From Phycisphaerae bacterium (GTDB lineage: Bacteria > Planctomycetota > Phycisphaerae > UBA1845), in assembly GCA_029260075.1 (NCBI GenBank), contig JAJDDY010000025.1:1-34302 (forward strand): DNA of 34,302 nt, written 5' to 3'. The notes below the pieces were generated by a model. The model did not search any database. It saw only the letters and a list, made by a program, of their open reading frames with translations, and had not been told where the DNA came from. A program made the translations under genes and the position numbers. Shown in pieces: positions 6,124 through 20,280 of the stretch (position 1 is the stretch's first letter; every line of letters starts with the position of its first letter).

Positions 6124-7392
6124 ATGAGCACCACAACCACAACGGTTCCCCAAGTCGGTCCCGCGACGTACGCTCCCGAAGAGCCGGGCGGCGACGTTTG
6201 GGTCCTAAATTTCGGGCCGCAACATCCCGCGACGCACACGACGCTGCGCCACGTGTTGGAGCTGGACGGCGAGCGGATCATCGGATGCACCGTGCACATC
6301 GGCTATCTGCACAGCGGTTTCGAAAAGATCGGCGAACACCTCAACTACAACCAATACGTCGTGGTGACGGACCGGATGAACTACGTTTCGCCCATGGCGA
6401 ACAACATCTGTTGGCACCATGCGTGCGAGCGATTGTTCGGCATCAAGATCACTCCGCGTTGCAAAGCCATTCGCACGATCATCGCCGAACTCGCCCGCAT
6501 TCAAGACCACCTGCTCGGCGTGGGCGCAGCCGGGCTCGATCTCGGCGCGTTCACGGCCTTCATGTATCCGTTCAACGCCCGCGAAAGCATCTACGATCTG
6601 TTCGAAGACGTTTGCGGGGCGCGTTTCACCACGAGCTACACGCGTCTGGGCGGGTTGATGCAAGACATCGCCCCGGACTGGCCGGCCAAGGTCAAACAGG
6701 TTTGCTCCGAAGTGCTTCCCAAGGCCGTCGACGATTTGGAGACGCTGCTTTCGCGTAACCGCATTTTCGTCGAACGCACGTCGGGCGTTGGATACGTCAG
6801 CCGAGAGGACGCCATCTCCTGGGGGTTGACCGGTCCGCTTGCCCGTGCAAGTGGTGTGCGGCGTGACCTGCGTAAGGACGAACCGTATCTTTGCTACGCC
6901 GACAACTGGGACGGGCAGGGCGCCTCGGCCGTGTCGTTCAAGGTTCCCGTGGCTACGGCGGGCGACTGCTATGCACGCTACCAAGTGCGTGTGGCCGAGA
7001 TTCGCGAGTCACTCAAGATCGTCGAACAGCTGATCGATCGCATTCCCGAGGGTCCGATCGACGTGCTTCCGGGCGACAAGAAAACACTACCAGACAAGAG
7101 CGAAGTGTACGGCAGCATCGAAGGTCTGATCCATCATTTTGAGCAGATTATGACCAACCGGGGCAACGAAGCACCGGTCGGCGAAGCGTACGGGTCGAAC
7201 GAAACCGCCAACGGCGAACTCGGGTTCTTTATCGCCAGCGACGGCGGTAACTGTGCGTATAGAGCGCGCTGCCGACCGCCGAGCTTTATCAATTATCAGT
7301 GCTTCCCGAAGTTGATCGTGGGTCATCAAATTAGCGACGTGACGGCGCTGCTCGGGAGTTTTAACATCATCGCTGCCGAACTGGATCGGTAG
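6124..7392 (+). CDS. nuoD: NADH-quinone oxidoreductase subunit D
   Basis: 422 residues from the ATG at 6124. NuoD (49-kDa subunit) forms the quinone-binding pocket with NuoB. Seen: FGPQHPATHTTLRHVLELDGE near residue 32, with the conserved quinone-site histidine; the loop GYLHSGFEKIGEHLNYNQY; TDRMNYVSPMANN, with the tyrosine position of the quinone site; and LGAFTAFMYPFNARESIYDLFEDVCGAR. The C-terminus has the expected RARCRPPSFINYQCFPKLIVGHQISDVTALLGSFNIIAAELDR. Length matches non-fused NuoD proteins. The tail is followed at once by the first cluster of hairpin repeats. Confidence 0.97.
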   Translation: MSTTTTTVPQVGPATYAPEEPGGDVWVLNFGPQHPATHTTLRHVLELDGERIIGCTVHIGYLHSGFEKIGEHLNYNQYVVVTDRMNYVSPMANNICWHHACERLFGIKITPRCKAIRTIIAELARIQDHLLGVGAAGLDLGAFTAFMYPFNARESIYDLFEDVCGARFTTSYTRLGGLMQDIAPDWPAKVKQVCSEVLPKAVDDLETLLSRNRIFVERTSGVGYVSREDAISWGLTGPLARASGVRRDLRKDEPYLCYADNWDGQGASAVSFKVPVATAGDCYARYQVRVAEIRESLKIVEQLIDRIPEGPIDVLPGDKKTLPDKSEVYGSIEGLIHHFEQIMTNRGNEAPVGEAYGSNETANGELGFFIASDGGNCAYRARCRPPSFINYQCFPKLIVGHQISDVTALLGSFNIIAAELDR

Positions 7393-7410: not shown

Positions 7411-7533
7411 GGGCCGAGAAAGGATTCACGGCCCAGCGTTGCTTCATGAGGGGCCGAGAAAGGATTCACGGCCCAGCGATAGCGGGTTATGTGTGACGTT
7501 GGCGCAAGAGGACCGAGAAGGGATTCACGGTCC
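7411..7533 (+). repeat. nuo hairpin repeat cluster 1 (three copies) upstream of nuoE
   Basis: Three copies of the 24-nt hairpin at 7411-7434, 7451-7474 and 7510-7533, each followed by AGCG. The first two have stems GGGCCG/CGGCCC and loop AGAAAGGATTCA; the third has stem GGACCG/CGGTCC and loop AGAAGGGATTCA. Changes in the stem are matched on both sides while the loop stays the same. The last copy ends 37 nt before the nuoE start. An open frame starting at ATG 7406 runs through the cluster into nuoE, but the copies are not all in the same frame within it. Confidence 0.9.
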
Positions 7534-7570
7534 AGCGGTCCAGCGTCTTCCGATCGCGATAGAGATACGC

Positions 7571-8176
7571 ATGGCTTGGAAAACGATTGATCGCACGACG
7601 CCGGTGGTTGACGCCGACGCCCCGCCCGTCCTGAGTGACGGGGTTCGCGACAAGATCCGCTCATTCTTCGTTCGATACGAAACGAAGCGGGCGGTGCTGC
7701 TGCCGGCGCTGCACGTCGTGCAGCACGCGCTGGGGCATATCTCGTGGCAGGCAATGGCCGAAATCGCGGAGATTCTGGAGATACCGCCGTCGGACGTGAT
7801 GGATACGGTCTCGTTCTATACCCACTTTTGGACGCACCCCAAGGGCAAGAAAGTGATCACTGTTTGCCGAAGCCTGTCTTGCGAGTTGATGGGCGGCGCG
7901 GACATGCTCGATACGCTCAAGAAGAAATTGAATATTACAGAACACGAGACCACGACCGACGGGCGATACAGCCTGGTTACCGAAGAATGTCTGGCCGGCT
8001 GCGATCACGCGCCCTGCCTGCTGGTTAACGAAAAGCTACACAAGCGCGTCCAACCCGCGGACGTAGACAAACTGTTGGCGGACGATTCCAACGATCGCGT
8101 CACCATGCCGCGCAGCGATCTGTTCGACCCGCCGCATGAAACGTCCGAGTCGCCGAACGGCGCGGACGAGGCATAG
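7571..8176 (+). CDS. nuoE: NADH-quinone oxidoreductase subunit E (2Fe-2S, N1a)
   Basis: 201 residues from the ATG at 7571. The frame is open back to ATG 7406, but those 55 extra codons are repeat-derived (hairpin cluster 1) and unlike any NuoE, so I prefer 7571. NuoE (24-kDa, thioredoxin-like) holds a [2Fe-2S] cluster in the NADH dehydrogenase module. Ligands are C99 and C104 (CRSLSC) and C140 and C144 (CLAGC), giving the family pattern Cx4C-x35-Cx3C. Also present are ALGHISWQAMAEIAEILEIP and DTVSFYTHF. The tail after about residue 165 is acidic and family-variable. nuoF starts 8 bp after its stop. Confidence 0.95.
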   Translation: MAWKTIDRTTPVVDADAPPVLSDGVRDKIRSFFVRYETKRAVLLPALHVVQHALGHISWQAMAEIAEILEIPPSDVMDTVSFYTHFWTHPKGKKVITVCRSLSCELMGGADMLDTLKKKLNITEHETTTDGRYSLVTEECLAGCDHAPCLLVNEKLHKRVQPADVDKLLADDSNDRVTMPRSDLFDPPHETSESPNGADEA

Positions 8177-9935: not shown

Positions 9936-11567
9936 ATGCCCAACGTAATCATCGACAATCAAGAGGTTGACTGCCGCGACGGTATCTCCGTCTTGCAGGC
10001 GGCGCTCGACAATGGGCGAGATGTGCCGCACTACTGCTACCACCCCGGTCTGTCGGTGGTGGCTTCGTGTCGTCTCTGCCTGATGGAAATGAAGATGCCG
10101 CACCCCAAGACGCACGAGATGGGGTGGGCGCCGAAGTTGATTCCGTCGTGCCAGACGATCGTGCGTGACGGCATGGAGGTTCGCTTCAACTCCGATCCGG
10201 TGCAGGCCAACCAAAAGGCCTGCATGGAGTTTTTCCTGCTGAACCATCCGCTCGACTGCCCGGTTTGCGATCAGGCCGGCGAGTGTCATCTTCAAGACTA
10301 CAGCTATAGGTTCGGCCGGGCGGAATCGCGCATGGTCGATCAGAAACAGGTTAACCCGAAGAAAGACATCGGGCCGAGCACACTGCTCTATCAAGACCGG
10401 TGCGTGATGTGTACGCGATGCGTTCGCTTTGCGACGGAGGTGGCGGGCACGAGTGAGCTGTGCATCGTGAATCGTGGCGGCCGTGCGGAAATCGACGTGT
10501 TCCCCGGCAAACCGCTTGATAACCCGATGCAAGGCAACGTCGTAGACATCTGCCCGGTCGGATGCTTACTCGATAAGGACTTCCTGTTTCAGCGACGCGT
10601 TTGGGAACTGACGGGTTCGCCGTCCATCTGCCCCGGTTGCGACCGAGGGTGCGCCGTCCGCGTGGACCATGCGGATGAGAAGGTCTATCGACTCAAGCCA
10701 CGATACAACCCCGGCGTCAACGATTGGTGGATGTGCGACGAGGGGCGTTTCGGATTCAAATACATTCACGATGCGAAACGAATCACGTCGCCCATCGTGC
10801 GGCGCGGGCTCGACGTCACGACGCCCGACTGGCGCGACGTTCCCGATATCATTCGTTTTCGATTCGAGCAACAAGTACTGGAGCACGGCGCCGACAAGGT
10901 GGCGGTGGTGCTCTCTCCGTTCATGGCCTGCGAAGAAGCCTGGCTGTTGATCAAGTTCATTCGAGGCGTAGCGCCCGAAGCGGCGCTGGTGATGGGTCCG
11001 GTTCCGACCGAAGGTAAAGAGCAGACGTTCCCGGTTCGTAGCGCCAACAGCGGTGCGAGCGAAGCTGACGTACGCTTCACGATCAGCGCGGAGAAATGCC
11101 CAAACCGGCGTGGTATCGAAATGTTGATCGGAGGCGCCGGCGGAACGACGCTGTCGTTTGATGAGTTCAATGAGCAATCAGGTGCATGGTCGGCGGTTTG
11201 GATGGTCGGTGGATACCCCAAGCCGTGGGTCGACAAGGCCACGACGAAAGCCGTCGCCAAGGTAAACCTGCTCGTCTTGCAGGATCTTCTGGAGAGCGAC
11301 CTTGTGGCCGCAGCGTCCATTGTTCTTCCCGCGTGTGCGTGGGTGGAGCGTGACGGCAGCTTCGTCAACGCGAGCGGGTTAATTCAGCCCTTCGAGCGAG
11401 CGATCAATCCGCCCGAGGGCGCGAAACGCGACGGTCAATACCTGTTTGAGTTGGCCGGGTATGAAGGGTTGTATAGCGGCGAGCGGGTTCGTGGGTTGAT
11501 GGCTGCGGAGTTGGATTCGTTTGCGAAAATCGCAGAAGCGCCGACGGCGCCGGCCCACGCGCATTAG
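9936..11567 (+). CDS. nuoG: NADH-quinone oxidoreductase subunit G (short form, keeps N7 ligands)
   Basis: 543 residues from the ATG at 9936. NuoG (75-kDa) carries the electron chain between NuoF and the membrane-side clusters. N1b [2Fe-2S]: C34, C45, C48, C72. N5: H104, C108, C111, C117 (HPLDCPVCDQAGEC). N4: C156, C159, C162, C206, with C210 nearby. Also C232, C235, C239 and C267, spaced Cx2Cx3Cx27C, the arrangement known for the extra cluster N7 of Thermus and Escherichia. The molybdopterin-oxidoreductase-like C-terminal domain is short: Thermus and E. coli proteins are far longer (about 780 and 910 residues). The last 20 residues are low-complexity. A gap of 232 bp with five hairpin repeats follows. 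Confidence 0.95.
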   Translation: MPNVIIDNQEVDCRDGISVLQAALDNGRDVPHYCYHPGLSVVASCRLCLMEMKMPHPKTHEMGWAPKLIPSCQTIVRDGMEVRFNSDPVQANQKACMEFFLLNHPLDCPVCDQAGECHLQDYSYRFGRAESRMVDQKQVNPKKDIGPSTLLYQDRCVMCTRCVRFATEVAGTSELCIVNRGGRAEIDVFPGKPLDNPMQGNVVDICPVGCLLDKDFLFQRRVWELTGSPSICPGCDRGCAVRVDHADEKVYRLKPRYNPGVNDWWMCDEGRFGFKYIHDAKRITSPIVRRGLDVTTPDWRDVPDIIRFRFEQQVLEHGADKVAVVLSPFMACEEAWLLIKFIRGVAPEAALVMGPVPTEGKEQTFPVRSANSGASEADVRFTISAEKCPNRRGIEMLIGGAGGTTLSFDEFNEQSGAWSAVWMVGGYPKPWVDKATTKAVAKVNLLVLQDLLESDLVAAASIVLPACAWVERDGSFVNASGLIQPFERAINPPEGAKRDGQYLFELAGYEGLYSGERVRGLMAAELDSFAKIAEAPTAPAHAH

Positions 11568-11576
11568 TATGAAAAA

Positions 11577-11742
11577 TGCCGAGAAGGGATTCACGGCACA
11601 GCATCTACGAACGCTGGAGCGTGAATCCTTTCTCGCTCCCTGGTTAGTGCCGAGAAGGGATTCACGGCACAGCGTGTGGTAGTACAACATGTGTCGAGAA
11701 GGGATTCACGGCACAGCGTGCCGAGAAAGGATTCACGGCGCA
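11577..11742 (+). repeat. nuo hairpin repeat cluster 2 (five copies) upstream of nuoH
   Basis: Copies at 11577-11600, 11617-11640 (inverted), 11648-11671, 11692-11715 and 11719-11742. Forward stems are ATGCCG/CGGCAC, GTGCCG/CGGCAC, GTGTCG/CGGCAC (G-T pair) and GTGCCG/CGGCGC (G-T pair), with loops AGAAGGGATTCA or AGAAAGGATTCA. The inverted copy has stem GGAGCG/CGCTCC around the complement of the loop and is preceded by CGCT, the complement of the AGCG tail. The last copy ends 57 nt before the nuoH ATG. Confidence 0.9.
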
Positions 11743-11799
11743 GCGTAACTGTGTGACACCGTAATCCGTTTGGCGGGGTCGGGTTTGAACGACGAGAAC

Positions 11800-13029
11800 A
11801 TGATCGAGTTTCTAACGAGTCAATTCGGCGTCAGCGCTCAGTTCGTCGTCAGCGTAGTGCTTGCCCTGGTGGTGATTGGGGCCATGCAAGGCGGTGTGGC
11901 GTACTGCATCTACTTCGAGCGGAAGATTTCCGCGTGGATTCAGGATCGCTATGGCCCCAACCGCGTGGGCCCGCTCGGCTTGCTGCAACCAGTGGCCGAC
12001 GGCGTCAAGTTCTTCTTCAAGGAAGACGTGGTGCCTCGCCACGTCGACAAGGTTCTGTTCATCCTGGCGCCGGGCATGATCATGTTCGTGTCGTTGATCG
12101 GCTTCGCGGCCATCCCGTGGGGCGGGCAGTTGCAGCTCGGCGAGAAGCTGGTCAACATTCAAGTGGCCAACCCCGACATCGGTTTGCTCTACATCCTCGG
12201 CGTGGCGTCGATGGGCGTCTATGGCGTCGTGATCGGCGGATGGGCGAGCAACAGCAAGTATCCGTTCTTTGGTGCGATCCGAGCGACGGCGCAGATGATC
12301 AGCTACGAAATTCCGATGGGTTTGTGCATCCTGGTCGTCGTGCTGACCATGGGCACGCTTCGCCTGGAAGACATCACACAACTGCAGACGGGGTATTGGC
12401 TTGGGTTCATCCCGCAATGGAACATGTTCCTACACCCACTGGCGTTCTTGATCTTGTTCATCTGCGTTCTTGCGGAAGCGAATCGGGCTCCGTTCGATCT
12501 GTCGGAGGCTGAGCAGGAACTGGTGGGCGGTTTCCACACCGAGTACAGCGCGCTGAAGTTCGGCATGTTCTTTCTCGCCGAATACGGACACATGATAACG
12601 TCGAGTGCTTTGATCACCGTGCTGTTCCTTGGCGGTTGGCACTTGCCGTGGTTTTCCTGGACGCAACCCGAAGCTACGCAGTGGTACGCTGTGGTCGCGA
12701 AGATGGGCGTGATCAGCGCGAAGATCGTCGTGTTCCTTTTCCTGATGATGTGGATACGCTGGACGCTTCCGCGATTCCGCTTCGACCAGTTGATGCGGTT
12801 GGCGTGGCAACGATTGATTCCTGTCACGCTCGCCCTGTTCGTCCTCACCGTCGGCCTGCTCTACTTTGGCCTGCATCGCTCGCCGGTGTGGGCGCTCAGT
12901 GGCAACGCGGTCATCGTCGTGGTCATGCTGGTATCAGCTGGCACGGTGGGCAAGGAAGTAACCGGTCGGCAGCCGAACCTGCCACGAATTCAAGAGTCAC
13001 CCGGCGCCGCTGCGCTGGCGGGGGTTTGA
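11800..13029 (+). CDS. nuoH: NADH-quinone oxidoreductase subunit H
   Basis: 409 residues from the ATG at 11800; the frame is open to a TTG at 11770, but the preceding residues have no family support. NuoH (ND1-like) is the membrane subunit that forms the quinone channel and links the peripheral arm to the proton pumps. Seen: YFERKISAWIQDRYGPNRVGPLGLLQPVADGVKFFFKED near the N-terminus and the acidic loop EANRAPFDLSEAEQELVGGFHTEYSALKF, both diagnostic. About eight membrane helices are evident. The C-terminal tail after about residue 380 is polar. nuoI starts 8 bp after the stop. Confidence 0.96.
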   Translation: MIEFLTSQFGVSAQFVVSVVLALVVIGAMQGGVAYCIYFERKISAWIQDRYGPNRVGPLGLLQPVADGVKFFFKEDVVPRHVDKVLFILAPGMIMFVSLIGFAAIPWGGQLQLGEKLVNIQVANPDIGLLYILGVASMGVYGVVIGGWASNSKYPFFGAIRATAQMISYEIPMGLCILVVVLTMGTLRLEDITQLQTGYWLGFIPQWNMFLHPLAFLILFICVLAEANRAPFDLSEAEQELVGGFHTEYSALKFGMFFLAEYGHMITSSALITVLFLGGWHLPWFSWTQPEATQWYAVVAKMGVISAKIVVFLFLMMWIRWTLPRFRFDQLMRLAWQRLIPVTLALFVLTVGLLYFGLHRSPVWALSGNAVIVVVMLVSAGTVGKEVTGRQPNLPRIQESPGAAALAGV

Positions 13030-13631: not shown

Positions 13632-14407
13632 CACCGACGACAGGCCATCTTCTCTACCTCGTCTTCGCCCTCGGCGGTGTGGGTGTATACCTGCTCCTGC
13701 CCAAGGGTCGCGGATCGCAGGTCCGGGCGGGCGCCGTGCTCGGTGGGCTGGCGCTGGCGGCGCTCATCAGTGTCCTGGCCACACGAATCGTCGTGACCAA
13801 TTCGACCACGGCATTCTTCTACGTCTTTTCGACGATTGCGATGCTCGGTGCGGTGCGTGTGATTACCCACACGAAGCCGGTCTACAGCGCCTTGTACTTC
13901 GTGCTTGTGGTCATCTCGGTGGCTGCCCTGCTGGTACTGATGCAGGCGGAGTTTCTGGCCATCGCCCTGATCATGGTCTACGCCGGTGCGATCATGGTGA
14001 CCTATCTGTTCGTCATCATGCTCGCGCAGCAGGATACCGCACCCGTGTGCGATCGCCGATCGCACGAACCGTTTCTAGCTGTGCTCGCCGGGTTCGTGCT
14101 CATGGCTGCGGTGGCTGGACGATGCGGCGATCTCACCACAGCGAGTGGCGACACGATCGCGCAAGCGTCTCCGACGAAAGCAACACTGGTCGCCAACGTG
14201 CCCGAATCGAGTGACGTCGGCAACACCACCGCAATCGGCAGGGCCGTAATGACACGATACATCGTGGCGTTCGAAATAGCCGGCGTCCTCCTTCTTGTGT
14301 CGATGGTTGGCGCGATCGCCCTGGCGAAGAAAAAGCTACCCACAGAAACGGTGGAAGAAGAGCGAACCCCGATCGGACAGATTGGGCGGGAGGTGCCACC
14401 GTACTAA
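13628..14407 (+). CDS. nuoJ: NADH-quinone oxidoreductase subunit J
   Basis: 259 residues. The start is GTG at 13628, inside the nuoI stop (GTGA overlap), which suggests coupled translation. NuoJ (ND6-like) is a membrane subunit with five helices, visible here at about residues 4-20, 29-50, 55-78, 90-132 (a long pair) and near 210-240. The family core is YSALYFVLVVISVAALLVLMQAEFLAIALIMVYAGAIMVTYLFVIML, including the VYAGAIxVxxLFVxML signature. A stretch of about 50 polar residues (150-200) separates the last helix. The TAA overlaps the nuoK ATG by one base. Confidence 0.93.
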   Translation: MTPTTGHLLYLVFALGGVGVYLLLPKGRGSQVRAGAVLGGLALAALISVLATRIVVTNSTTAFFYVFSTIAMLGAVRVITHTKPVYSALYFVLVVISVAALLVLMQAEFLAIALIMVYAGAIMVTYLFVIMLAQQDTAPVCDRRSHEPFLAVLAGFVLMAAVAGRCGDLTTASGDTIAQASPTKATLVANVPESSDVGNTTAIGRAVMTRYIVAFEIAGVLLLVSMVGAIALAKKKLPTETVEEERTPIGQIGREVPPY

Positions 14408-14709
14408 TGCCTGGTATCGTGGAATATCTCATTCTGTCCGCCGTGCTGTTCGCCTTGGGTTTGGTCGGTTTTCTCTCGCGTAGGAACCTGATTGTCATGT
14501 TCCTGTCGACCGAGGTGATGTTTCAAGGCGTGGTCATCAGCGCCGTCGCCTTCGCAAAGTTTCACCGACAGATGGACGGACAGGCGATGGGCTTGTTCTT
14601 GCTGGTGATTGCGGCTGCGGAAGCCGGGTTGGCGCTGGGCATGGTGGTCATGCTGTACAAACGGCGCGGCACGCTTGACGTCGACGTATGGTCGTCGATG
14701 CGCGGATGA
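14407..14709 (+). CDS. nuoK: NADH-quinone oxidoreductase subunit K
   Basis: 100 residues, the usual NuoK length; the ATG at 14407 shares one base with the nuoJ stop (TAATG). NuoK (ND4L-like) has three membrane helices carrying two acidic residues of the proton path, visible here in FLSTEVMFQGVVISAV and VIAAAEAGLALGMVVMLYKR. The short hydrophilic tail ends in TLDVDVWSSMRG. A single hairpin repeat follows before nuoL. Confidence 0.95.
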   Translation: MPGIVEYLILSAVLFALGLVGFLSRRNLIVMFLSTEVMFQGVVISAVAFAKFHRQMDGQAMGLFLLVIAAAEAGLALGMVVMLYKRRGTLDVDVWSSMRG

Positions 14710-14724
14710 ATCTCTCGCGATGTG

Positions 14725-14748
14725 GGTGCGAGAAGGGATTCACGCACC
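14725..14748 (+). repeat. nuo hairpin repeat, single copy upstream of nuoL
   Basis: One 24-nt copy with stem GGTGCG/CGCACC and loop AGAAGGGATTCA, followed by AGCGG. Compared with the majority stem GTGCCG/CGGCAC, several positions differ and each change is matched on the other side, while the loop is identical. It ends 15 nt before the nuoL ATG, so it could occupy or shield the translation start region. No other ribosome binding site is obvious for nuoL. Confidence 0.88.
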
Positions 14749-14763
14749 AGCGGTAAGACGATA

Positions 14764-16735: not shown

Positions 16736-18682
16736 TTGGAAGGTATTCTAACGCTTGTCATTTTCTCACCGCTGATCGGCGTGCTGGTTTTGCTGCTGCC
16801 CGGCGTGCGTTCCGACGTTGCGATTCGGCGCACGGCGCTTGGTTGCACGTTGCTGACGCTGGCGATCACGGTGATGTGCGTCGTCGCGTTCTATCAGGGT
16901 CCGCCCGAGGGTGAGCCGTCGGGACCGTACCGTCTGACGACGCACATGGCTTGGATCGGTGGCGGATCGAGCGCCGAATCCGTGGACATCGACATCGGCT
17001 ATCGCGTCGGCGTCGATGGTATCAGCATTTGGCTTGTCGCGCTGACGTCGCTGCTTACGCCGCTAGCCATCTGGTCGAGCTTCACGTCCGTCCAAAAACG
17101 CTGCCGCGAGTATTACGCCCTGTTGTTGTTACTGCAGGTGGCGTTGCTCGGCGTCTTCTGCGCGACGGACTTACTCTTGTTCTATGTGTTTTTCGAATTC
17201 ACGCTGGTCCCGCTTTATCTTCTGATCGGCGTTTGGGGTGGATCAGAGCGTCGCCGCGCCGCGAACAAGTTCTTCATCTACACAATCGCCGGCAGCGTGC
17301 TGACTTTCGCCGGAATTGTCTACCTCGCGTACTTCGCCTACAGCGTTCGCGGAAGGCTCTCGCTCGACTTCGTATTCCTCAAACAGCTCGGACAGTCGGG
17401 AGCCATACCGTTTGAGGTTCAGTGGTGGCTCTTCGTCGCGTTCGCCGCCGGTTTCGCCATCAAAGTGCCGCTGTTCCCCTTCCACACCTGGCTTCCGCTC
17501 GCGCACACGGAGGCACCGACCGCAGGCAGTGTCATGCTCGCCGGTGTGCTGCTCAAGCTGGGAACGTATGGCTTTTGCCGCTTGAGCATTCCCATGCTGC
17601 CGGACGCGGCGCGACATCTCGCACCGGTCGTGGCTGTCATCGCGATCATCGGCATCATCTATACGGCGCTGGCGGCGTGGGTTCAAAAAGACATCAAGAA
17701 ACTGGTGGCGTACTCGTCTGTTTCGCACCTTGGTTTTTGCATGCTCGGGCTCTTCAGCCTCAAGGTCGTCGGCGTGGGCGGCGGCGTGCTCTACATGATC
17801 AATCACGGGCTCTCGACGGGCGCACTTTTTCTTCTGATCGGTTTCCTCTACCAGCGATACCACACGCGTAGCATCGACGAAATCAGCGGGCTTGCCCGGC
17901 GCATGCCATGGCTCGCGTTCTTCTTCGTGTTCTTCACGCTCAGCAGCATCGGGCTCCCGGGGCTCAACGGTTTTGTCGGCGAATTTCTCGTTCTGATTGG
18001 CGCCGCCACTTCGGCATCAACCAACGATGGTATTGCGGCCGGTCCGCTGGGTTATGGCTACGTCATTCCAGCCGCTACGGGCATTATCCTCAGTGCGGTG
18101 TATATGCTTTGGATGTGTCAGCGTGTGCTGTTCGGCCCGCTGAACGAGCCGCGCGATACCCCGGACACCTCAGCTGGGCTGACGCACGACCTGACGCGTA
18201 GTGAAATCGGCATGCTCGTTCCGCTGGCTGCGTGTTGCGTGTTCATCGGCGTCTACCCGAAACCGCTGCTCACGACATTCGAAGTCGCCATCAGAACCAA
18301 CATTCTCACCTCGACCGTATCCATCGCCGACGCACAGCCGATACGGCAAGGCGAGCATGACGCTGTTTCCTTACCGGGGTCGGCCAGCGTTCAGCTCGCA
18401 GCCGCACGAGTGTTCGGAACGGGACTGAATGATTCGGAACTGCTGAATCGATCTGACGATGCGCCGCGATCCATCATTCAGAACACCGTCGCAAGTGTAG
18501 GGTGCCGAGAAGGGATTCACGGCACAACTTGTATTCAGGGCACTGTCGCAAGTGCAACGTGCCGAGAAAGGATTCACGGCACAGCTTGTGTTGGGCATCG
18601 AGAAGGGGTTCACGGCACAGCTTGTGTGGAGCGTCGAAAACGGGTTGACGGTACAGCTTCGTCCGGAGGGGTAGGTCGATGA
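16736..18682 (+). CDS. nuoM: NADH-quinone oxidoreductase subunit M with repeat-encoded C-terminal extension
   Basis: 648 residues from the TTG at 16736, chosen because AAGGAG (16722-16727) lies 8 nt upstream. NuoM (ND4-like) is an antiporter-type proton pump. The core ends near residue 515 and has LLFYVFFEFTLVPLYLLIGVWG (with the key Glu), the Lys-containing FAIKVPLFPFHTWLPLAHTEAP and KKLVAYSSVSHLGFCMLG. NuoM proteins usually have about 470-510 residues, so about 130 are extra. The last part, from residue 589, is built from four hairpin repeats read in one frame: CREGIHGT, CRERIHGT, HREGVHGT and RRKRVDGT. The stop overlaps the nuoN start as ATGA, so translation through the repeats probably feeds nuoN. 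Confidence 0.95.
   Translation: MEGILTLVIFSPLIGVLVLLLPGVRSDVAIRRTALGCTLLTLAITVMCVVAFYQGPPEGEPSGPYRLTTHMAWIGGGSSAESVDIDIGYRVGVDGISIWLVALTSLLTPLAIWSSFTSVQKRCREYYALLLLLQVALLGVFCATDLLLFYVFFEFTLVPLYLLIGVWGGSERRRAANKFFIYTIAGSVLTFAGIVYLAYFAYSVRGRLSLDFVFLKQLGQSGAIPFEVQWWLFVAFAAGFAIKVPLFPFHTWLPLAHTEAPTAGSVMLAGVLLKLGTYGFCRLSIPMLPDAARHLAPVVAVIAIIGIIYTALAAWVQKDIKKLVAYSSVSHLGFCMLGLFSLKVVGVGGGVLYMINHGLSTGALFLLIGFLYQRYHTRSIDEISGLARRMPWLAFFFVFFTLSSIGLPGLNGFVGEFLVLIGAATSASTNDGIAAGPLGYGYVIPAATGIILSAVYMLWMCQRVLFGPLNEPRDTPDTSAGLTHDLTRSEIGMLVPLAACCVFIGVYPKPLLTTFEVAIRTNILTSTVSIADAQPIRQGEHDAVSLPGSASVQLAAARVFGTGLNDSELLNRSDDAPRSIIQNTVASVGCREGIHGTTCIQGTVASATCRERIHGTACVGHREGVHGTACVERRKRVDGTASSGGVGR
18502..18654 (+). 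repeat. nuo hairpin repeat cluster 4 (four copies) inside the nuoM coding region
   Basis: Copies at 18502-18525, 18559-18582, 18595-18618 and 18631-18654. The first two are near-consensus (stem GTGCCG/CGGCAC, loops AGAAGGGATTCA and AGAAAGGATTCA); the third has GCATCG/CGGCAC and loop AGAAGGGGTTCA; the fourth, GCGTCG/CGGTAC and loop AAAACGGGTTGA, is the most decayed. Start-to-start distances are 57, 36 and 36 nt, all multiples of three, so every copy is read in the same frame. Linkers contain AGCTTGTGT. The last copy ends 24 nt before the nuoN ATG. Confidence 0.92.
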
Positions 18683-20280
18683 ACTTCGAACAACTTTCGA
18701 TGCTCGCTCCGGAATTTACTATGCTGGTCGGCGGCTGCCTGGCGCTTCTCGTCGGTGCCACGTCGGCGTCACAACGTGCCCAGTTGGTTTCACCGTTGGC
18801 GTTCATTACGATTGTCGCGGCCTTACTCATGACCCTGTCGCTGGGCACGCCCGAGTCGGCGCAGGTCATTCCCGGCCTGTGGCTATCGTCGCTAACGTTC
18901 TACGTGCGGTGCGTAGCGCTGGTTGTCGGGGCGATCATCGTCCTGGTGAACTGGCATCAGCCGACGGCGTCGGAGCGCGGCGAGTACATGGCGCTCATAC
19001 TGTTCTCGCTACTCGGCGTCCTGCTCACGGCTTCGTCGAACGATCTGATCGTGCTCTTTTTCAGCATTGAACTCGTAAGCATTCCGACGTACGTCTTGAT
19101 CGGACTCAGTCGTGAAGATTCGCGTGCGTCGGAGTCGGCCGTCAAGTACTTCTTCCTCGGCGCATTGTCCGCCGCCATTCTCGCCTACGGCATGAGCTTC
19201 CTCTACGGCGCTGCGGGTACGACGCTGTTGCAGACGTCGGGTGACGGCGCGTCGATCGCGGCGTGGGCGTCTCACGGCGTCATGAGCGGAACAGCCATCG
19301 TTGGTTTGCTGCTGATTCTAGCCGGTTTGGCGTTCAAGGTCGCAGCCGTGCCCTTGCATGTGTACGTCGGTGACGTGTATGAAGGCGCCGCATCGCCCAT
19401 CACCGGCCTGCTCGGTTTCGTTCCGAAGCTGGCCGGGTTCGTCGCGCTGATTCAGATTTTTTCCGCCTGCCAGTGGGACGTACCGGACGCCGCGTACTGG
19501 GCGATATGGGCGATGGCGGCGGCGACGATGACCGTGGGCAACGTGGTCGCGTTACTGCAGACCAATGTCAAACGCATGCTGGCCTATTCGAGCGTAGCCC
19601 ACACGGGTTACATGCTGGTCGCGCTGCTGGTCGGTCCGATGGCGGGACACGGACCGATGCACAACGGCGTAGCCGCCCTGCTGTTCTACATCGCCGTGTA
19701 CGGGGCGATGAACCTCGGACTGTTCGCGGTGTTGTCGGCGTTTGCTCGTCGCGGGAAGCCGATCGAGACGCTTGACGATCTGGCCGGGCTCGCCACAGTT
19801 TCACCCTTGATCGGTTTGGCCACCGCCGTATGCAGTTTCTCGCTGATGGGCCTGCCACCCACGGCCGGATTTGTCGGCAAGCTCTATGTATTCAGCAGCG
19901 CCTTTTCTCTTGGGGCCGAACACGCCTTCCAAAAACCCTTGATCATCCTGGCGGTCATCGGCGTGGTGAACTCGGCGATCGGTGCAGCGTACTACCTGCG
20001 CATTGTGGCGTCGGTCTACATTCGCGAAAGTGACGAGTCGCCGACACCCGTCGCCGGACACCCGGTGCGATGGGGGATCGCGTTGTGCAGCATCCCCCTG
20101 CTCGTTCTGTTTGTCTGGCCGGTCGGCCTGCTCGATACGGCACGGCAGGCGTCCGTCCCCACCAATGCACCGGTCCACTCGGTGAAGGTGGTCGAGGCCA
20201 GCGGTATCACATCCGCCCCAAATACGACCCCGCCCGTGCTCTTGAACGAGATGCCGTTTGCCGCCGCTTCACGCGACTAA
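18679..20280 (+). CDS. nuoN: NADH-quinone oxidoreductase subunit N
   Basis: 533 residues; the ATG at 18679 overlaps the nuoM stop (ATGA), and GGAGGGG stands at 18664-18670, about 8 nt upstream. NuoN (ND2-like) is the proton-pump subunit next to NuoK. Seen: FFSIELVSIPTYVLIGLSREDSRASE, with the conserved Glu; LAFKVAAVPLHVYVGDVYEGAASPITGLL, with the conserved Lys; and VKRMLAYSSVAHTGYMLVAL. About 13-14 membrane helices are evident. The last 45 residues are a polar, family-variable tail. It is the last nuo gene; nnr follows 23 bp later on the same strand. Confidence 0.96.
   Translation: MNFEQLSMLAPEFTMLVGGCLALLVGATSASQRAQLVSPLAFITIVAALLMTLSLGTPESAQVIPGLWLSSLTFYVRCVALVVGAIIVLVNWHQPTASERGEYMALILFSLLGVLLTASSNDLIVLFFSIELVSIPTYVLIGLSREDSRASESAVKYFFLGALSAAILAYGMSFLYGAAGTTLLQTSGDGASIAAWASHGVMSGTAIVGLLLILAGLAFKVAAVPLHVYVGDVYEGAASPITGLLGFVPKLAGFVALIQIFSACQWDVPDAAYWAIWAMAAATMTVGNVVALLQTNVKRMLAYSSVAHTGYMLVALLVGPMAGHGPMHNGVAALLFYIAVYGAMNLGLFAVLSAFARRGKPIETLDDLAGLATVSPLIGLATAVCSFSLMGLPPTAGFVGKLYVFSSAFSLGAEHAFQKPLIILAVIGVVNSAIGAAYYLRIVASVYIRESDESPTPVAGHPVRWGIALCSIPLLVLFVWPVGLLDTARQASVPTNAPVHSVKVVEASGITSAPNTTPPVLLNEMPFAAASRD

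Follow-up and report, generated by a model that had tools for sequence, protein, structure and literature searches.

A dispersed REP-like hairpin family, associated with one RAYT clade, lies in frame at the end of nuoM in a Phycisphaerae bacterium

The four hairpin repeats that lie near the end of the nuoM reading frame of this bacterium very probably belong to a REP-like family which is dispersed by a dedicated RAYT, whose copies inside genes are kept in frame and which has lengthened the NuoM tail. The hairpin itself is a dispersed element, and probably a mobile one.

Features of the window (the whole 34,302-nt stretch of DNA analysed) and of other loci with in-gene copies are collected in Table 1. 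The original prediction had placed four copies in the nuoM frame, at distances of 57, 36 and 36 nt, and had this frame ending in an ATGA overlap with nuoN; positions, steps and translations were all as claimed, and the 4-nt overlap was seen at 18679–18682. Differences were counted over a 27-nt unit, consisting of the hairpin plus AGC, against the consensus GTGCCGAGAARGGATTCACGGCACAGC. Copies 1 and 2 pair fully apart from one A.A mismatch, and the stems of copies 3 and 4 are decaying. Both the frame and the length of the array are known from one draft assembly of 93 contigs.

Table 1 Hairpin copies and associated features in the window and at other loci of the genome
Feature	Location	Strand	Details
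Three hairpin copies	7411..7536	+	Gap between ORFs 6124-7392 and 7571-8176
Five hairpin copies (four +, one -)	11576..11741	.	Gap between ORFs 9936-11567 and 11770-13029
One hairpin copy, GGTGC stem	14725..14751	+	Gap between nuoK 14407-14709 and nuoL 14764
nuoM	16736..18682	+	648 aa, TTG start, TGA stop; TIGR01972 544.5 bits (cutoff 263.8)
57-nt tandem duplication with copies 1 and 2	18476..18589	+	Period 57, 2.0 copies, 85% matches
Hairpin copy 1 (CREGIHGT)	18502..18528	+	1 difference from consensus, stem intact
Hairpin copy 2 (CRERIHGT)	18559..18585	+	0 differences from consensus
36-nt tandem array with copies 2 to 4	18563..18659	+	Period 36, 2.7 copies
Hairpin copy 3 (HREGVHGT)	18595..18621	+	4 differences, decaying
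Hairpin copy 4 (RRKRVDGT)	18631..18657	+	7 differences, strongly decayed
nuoN	18679..20280	+	ATG start; TIGR01770 354.7 bits (cutoff 332.6)
In-gene copies: nuoM; recG (twice); S9 peptidase	L283 (S9 peptidase)		
In-gene copy: FG-GAP/ASPIC protein	L163		
In-gene copy: protein without Pfam match	L169		
In-gene copies: AMP-ligase	L178 8890, 8947		Two, reverse orientation (SCAVNPFSAP), between its two PDB-aligned parts
In-gene copies: glycosyltransferase	L321		Internal site and near C-terminus; no PDB match

A 24-mer search allowing up to three mismatches produced eight matches in the window and none in 100 shuffles, and the 16-nt core CGAGAARGGATTCACG occurred in 275 exact copies in the 4.92-Mb genome (136 and 139 per strand), with no match to a reversed control pattern across the same sequence; the nuoM repeats are therefore not a product of chance. 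Given the 57-nt duplication and the 36-nt array, the four nuoM copies need not represent four separate insertions. As the 57-nt unit also contains ordinary, non-hairpin tail sequence (IQNTVAS / IQGTVAS), the simplest history is one insertion followed by tandem duplication, and the four copies probably arose by such amplification. No part of the window matched Rfam at gathering thresholds.

The hairpin unit of 27 nt comprises a 5-bp outer stem, an apex CGAGAARGGATTC[A/T]CG with an RGGA tetraloop and a 3' foot, AGC. Genome-wide, a GTGCC-stem pattern (≤ 3 mismatches) gave 101 matches and a GGNGC-stem pattern (≤ 2 mismatches) 254. Variation was assessed on 337 core matches, 141 of them distinct over 27 nt, from 92 stretches (838 kb) picked around known copies, a sample biased in density. 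Outer stems were GGTGC/GCACC (111 copies), GTGCC/GGCAC (65), GGGAC/GTCCC (26), GGAGC/GCTCC (20), GTGTC/GACAC (13) and others, and all five outer pairs, counting G-T, were formed in 264 of the 337. Foot positions were retained in 321 (A), 329 (G) and 321 (C) matches. Among the 141 distinct copies, compensatory change kept pairs 2-23, 3-22, 4-21 and 10-15 together above all 500 shuffles and pair 1-24 slightly above them; pairs 5-20, 6-19, 8-17 and 9-16 hardly vary and did not exceed the shuffles. Judged by this comparison of copies, the apex and the 3' AGC foot are fixed and the outer stem covaries. Divergent pairs with the foot outward (18 cases) had core-to-core distances of 31, 33 or 34 nt, and a 507-kb sample held 65 same-strand close pairs, with 27 of its 73 clusters being singletons.

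Across the order, the TTCWC form CGAGAARGGATTCWCG matched 41 of 114 genomes, with 281 copies in the own genome, 124 in G047, 95 in G076, 87 in G073, 67 in G020 and 56 in G074. The TTCAC form alone was found in 24 of the 114, at high copy solely in the own genome (275 copies, the next having 17); the apparent confinement of the family at high copy to this genome was an artefact of the TTCAC-only pattern. Own-genome copies are nearly all TTCAC (275 of 281), with position 7-18 being A.A in 109 of the 141 distinct ones, and the same position is paired, as a TTCTC palindrome, in most of the copies listed for relatives. This split may possibly reflect co-evolution of RAYT and hairpin.

One RAYT gene of the own genome (C86:223123-223575) matched NF047646 with 114.7 bits (cutoff 80), and its sole PDB match at E ≤ 0.01 was 4er8, TnpArep. 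As a query against the 114 genomes it recovered 12 full copies (240–412 bits) in 10 genomes including its own, and a fragment in G068; the next-best match beyond this clade reached 69 bits. The motifs NHxH and Y(I/L)HxNP were present in all 10 aligned members of the 12 (the own protein has NHVH as its HUH motif, plus Y---NP), which were mutually 57–81% identical. A hairpin lay within ~ 200 nt of every one of the 12 full copies, on both sides in 11 (on one side at L255), and the nearest hairpins were inverted with the foot outward in nine; at 36 distinct RAYT loci of other clades, some cut by contig ends, there were none. By genome, the hairpin was present in 11/11 carriers of the clade (one by virtue of the G068 fragment) versus 30/103 of the remainder (Fisher p = 4.9e-6, Mann-Whitney p = 1.6e-8, both p-values ignoring relatedness). 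This association suggests that the spread of the hairpin was probably helped by a small transposase of this clade and, together with the 275 exact cores, bears out the earlier view of a mobile or spreading hairpin, mobility itself being probable. Counting against this view, several hairpin-rich genomes yielded no RAYT of the clade, namely G073 (87 hairpins), G107 (49), G088 (42) and G048 (37); for these one has to suppose that the transposase was lost, that contigs were missed or that a different mobilizer is at work.

Other candidate transposase genes of the own genome were also inspected. One of them (L149), IS200/RAYT-like but scoring under both NCBIfam cutoffs, had four hairpins ~ 1 kb away, which likewise counts against it, and the loci of an IS200 transposase (L147) and of a RAYT-like gene below cutoff (L148) contained none. 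Two Y1_Tnp matches (L151 and L152) fell in long ORFs that look unrelated and were set aside. At four loci of the clade (L254, L259, L261 and L265, from G074, G026, G020 and G002), one end of the RAYT gene, or both, also carries a second GC-rich hairpin, GGGAAGGGATTCCC, at a distance of 28 nt from the main one, resembling the end of a compound transposon.

In the 838-kb sample, 319 of the 337 matches lay outside called ORFs, one at an ORF edge and just 17 inside, versus 258 expected from a coding share of 0.766. Clusters showed a roughly twofold enrichment between convergent genes (44 of 126 clusters vs 90 of 525 gene pairs overall). Such placement, the occurrence of copies in three further gaps of the gene cluster that contains nuoM and the folding of copies 1 and 2 as RNA hairpins are what would be expected if the hairpins were intercistronic RNA elements, serving mRNA stability, pausing or nuoM-nuoN coupling, with an open frame that is incidental. 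We consider this reading unlikely, albeit the strongest of the alternatives. The 215-nt region of the copies is only mildly better folded than shuffles (z = -2.0, 9/200), and copies residing within recG, the S9 peptidase and the AMP-ligase genes cannot be intercistronic.

Counts of matches inside ORFs rest on a home-made codon-score ORF caller and miss out-of-frame insertions, since those break an ORF. Four of the 17 were discounted by eye, one in L176, where a divergent core within a long ORF was taken for a chance match, and three in L172, where the start site was probably miscalled, leaving 13 matches at nine sites in seven genes (Table 1). The recG gene, this genome's sole RecG match at that level, has 16 residues between anchors at its first site as opposed to two in 23/29 relatives, the other six having 4–18 unrelated residues, and 51 residues at the second site compared with 6–14 in all 29; both inserts are absent from two solved RecG sequences. 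In the S9 peptidase, the insert occupies a loop which most of the 14 relatives compared have in a short form, and one of them (L344) has an unrelated insert of its own there. Alignment of orthologs shows in-frame insertion within genes, twice in recG and once in the S9 peptidase.

Among the relatives, G076 has a copy in an Eco57I-type protein (L362), where it is flanked by two weakly aligned methylase motifs. Stop-to-stop ORFs over hairpins in G076, G073 and G066 were mostly spurious by eye, and of 51 hairpins in these three genomes we retained this one and possibly another in a GGDEF protein (L367). An insert in the recG of G037 (L239), suspected of being hairpin-derived, was rejected on the basis of its DNA.

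The NuoM core ends at approximately residue 527, and the remainder is a tail predicted to be disordered (AlphaFold2 with 28 sequences, pLDDT < 50 at residues 528–648). Here, 237 residues separate the GF.GE motif from the stop, compared with 123–213 (median 166) in 47 NuoM loci of relatives, none of which reaches 237, and 30 of these 47 have the same 4-nt overlap between nuoM and nuoN. The tails are hydrophilic and mutually unlike by eye (19 NuoM sequences, own included). Over the stretches available for 109 nuo loci from relatives, no hairpin was found in a nuoM tail; it was seen only at L070 and L118, both times outside the tail. The original prediction had the copies forming the end of an extension of about 130 residues beyond the NuoM core. 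The copies do end the tail; that they created the extension we reject, since a long, variable tail and the nuoN overlap are found in relatives too, so that the copies merely lengthened what was there. In numbers, they appear to have added some 50–60 residues to an already existing NuoM tail. At L118 (position 2259), in another Phycisphaerales genome, the hairpin is of the TTCTC form and occupies the nuoL-nuoM gap.

A second part of the same claim, that a hairpin had been turned into protein, holds in as far as copies occupy the reading frame of nuoM and of several further genes. With no stop ahead of them, the copies are translated if nuoM is, an argument which also speaks against a purely intercistronic role; the open frame and the nuoN overlap suggest that they are. 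Special selection is not needed to explain the open frame, though. Across 23 intergenic same-strand arrays of at least three copies, 65% of forward frames were open, a consequence of composition that would equally suit an RNA element, and we therefore rejected the uninterrupted frame through four copies as proof of selection; by itself it says little. As for the 27-nt unit itself, its three forward frames all lack a stop; the TTCAC form is additionally stop-free in two reverse frames, and the TTCTC form is so in all six frames. In the region of the copies, the score per codon was -0.19 when read as nuoM and 0.09 in an alternative frame, as against 0.17 for the nuoM core in its own frame; by this measure the nuoM frame of the region is not coding-like, and the alternative scores better.

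These scores also count against domestication, whereby the copies would be coding repeats retained by selection for some role of the NuoM tail, which we regard as very improbable. All three nuoM spacings are divisible by three, compared with 18 of the 65 between same-strand copies in the 507-kb sample (two nuoM spacings included). However, there are just three of them, and under tandem duplication they are not independent; moreover, the tail is unconserved and predicted to be disordered, and the decay of copies 3 and 4 changes amino acids. Least probable of all is an assembly or frameshift artefact, with the real nuoM stopping earlier and the copies being intergenic: a 93-contig draft with tandem repeats may suffer collapse or indels, and none of the 47 relatives' loci has so long a tail, but the frame meets nuoN in the very overlap seen in most of them and other genes have in-frame copies flanked on both sides by homologous sequence.

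The explanation we favour, dispersal of a REP-like hairpin by its own RAYT, would run as follows. A dedicated RAYT, an HUH single-strand transposase, would disperse the hairpin, the association of the two being observed and the movement presumed, and the hairpin would so have risen to its present copy number, mostly in intergenic positions. Insertions into genes would persist as long as they preserve the frame and the protein can accommodate a loop, and survival in frame would be easy because the unit is stop-free in its three forward frames. One unit may then have entered the variable, disordered C-terminal tail of NuoM just before the nuoN start and have been tandemly duplicated in multiples of three, to be read as the added residues, with the nuoM-nuoN overlap common among relatives retained through the insertion.

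Among known systems, REP elements of the GTAG and CGTC superfamilies (PMC3733652) are likewise short palindromes of high copy number, mostly intergenic and arranged in pairs and clusters, and cognate RAYT genes flanked by the element are another REP-like trait of the present family. However, the foot here is a 3' AGC (GCT on the other strand) rather than GTAG/GTGG or CGTC, the 5' flank is not conserved, the apex is fixed and it is the outer stem that covaries. With a foot of neither the GTAG nor the CGTC type, the family is best described as a REP variant and not as a canonical REP. RAYT classes with their motifs and feet, as well as frame-keeping REP insertions inside one RAYT subclass, have been set out in PMC6006769, and the RAYT-REP unit in PMC2817692. 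The class 2 RAYTs (TnpAREP) and REPtrons of these accounts share the HUH and Y---NP motifs and the flanking hairpin with our clade, but differ in their GT[AG]G foot. Class 3 TnpAY1 proteins (PMC6006769) are similar in having Planctomycetes hosts and atypical hairpins that can be of high copy number, but are defined in that account by Y----Q and a CnGA foot, where we find Y---NP and AGC/GCT. REPINs (PMC3116915) resemble the inverted doublets with short fixed spacing described above; in contrast to REPINs as presented there, singletons and same-strand close pairs are also common here.

The analogy with Rickettsia palindromic elements (RPEs; PMC10969869, PMC3733652), drawn when the repeats were first noticed, is a good one in kind, because the hairpin is read in frame in nuoM and several other, unrelated genes. 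Compared by description alone, the first-described RPEs are ~ 150 bp (PMC10969869) as opposed to 27 nt, and RPE-4 and RPE-6 are CGTC REPs said to be without a dedicated transposase (PMC3733652), whereas a RAYT is associated here. The latter source already reports REPs inside genes, translated into amino acids, for several bacteria. In the literature searched, supplementary files and closed journals aside, neither the motif strings nor an account of this hairpin family was found. We regard it as a REP/RAYT family with an unusual foot, working like REP/RAYT and, within genes, like RPEs.

Protein-coding palindromes are hereby extended beyond Rickettsia and the species already in print to Phycisphaerae, and a single hairpin family with an unusual foot is tied to a single RAYT clade. 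The two inserts in recG and those in nuoM and the S9 peptidase offer natural cases for studying the tolerance of proteins to transposon-made loops. More speculatively, and with a good deal of doubt on our part, a RAYT-driven hairpin could serve in this order as a constant source of small in-frame insertions into proteins: nine codons long and stop-free, the unit could enter genes, recG included, without killing them, and the A.A form and shifting stems would then reflect a recent burst with RAYT-hairpin co-evolution.

Finally, the combination of a fixed apex and a covarying stem provides a ready data set on hairpin recognition by RAYTs. Truncated forms of the hairpin were also encountered: at L186 (5865–5979), a hairpin half (GCTGGTGCGTGAATCCCTTT) is repeated in a 20-nt tandem array of about six units.
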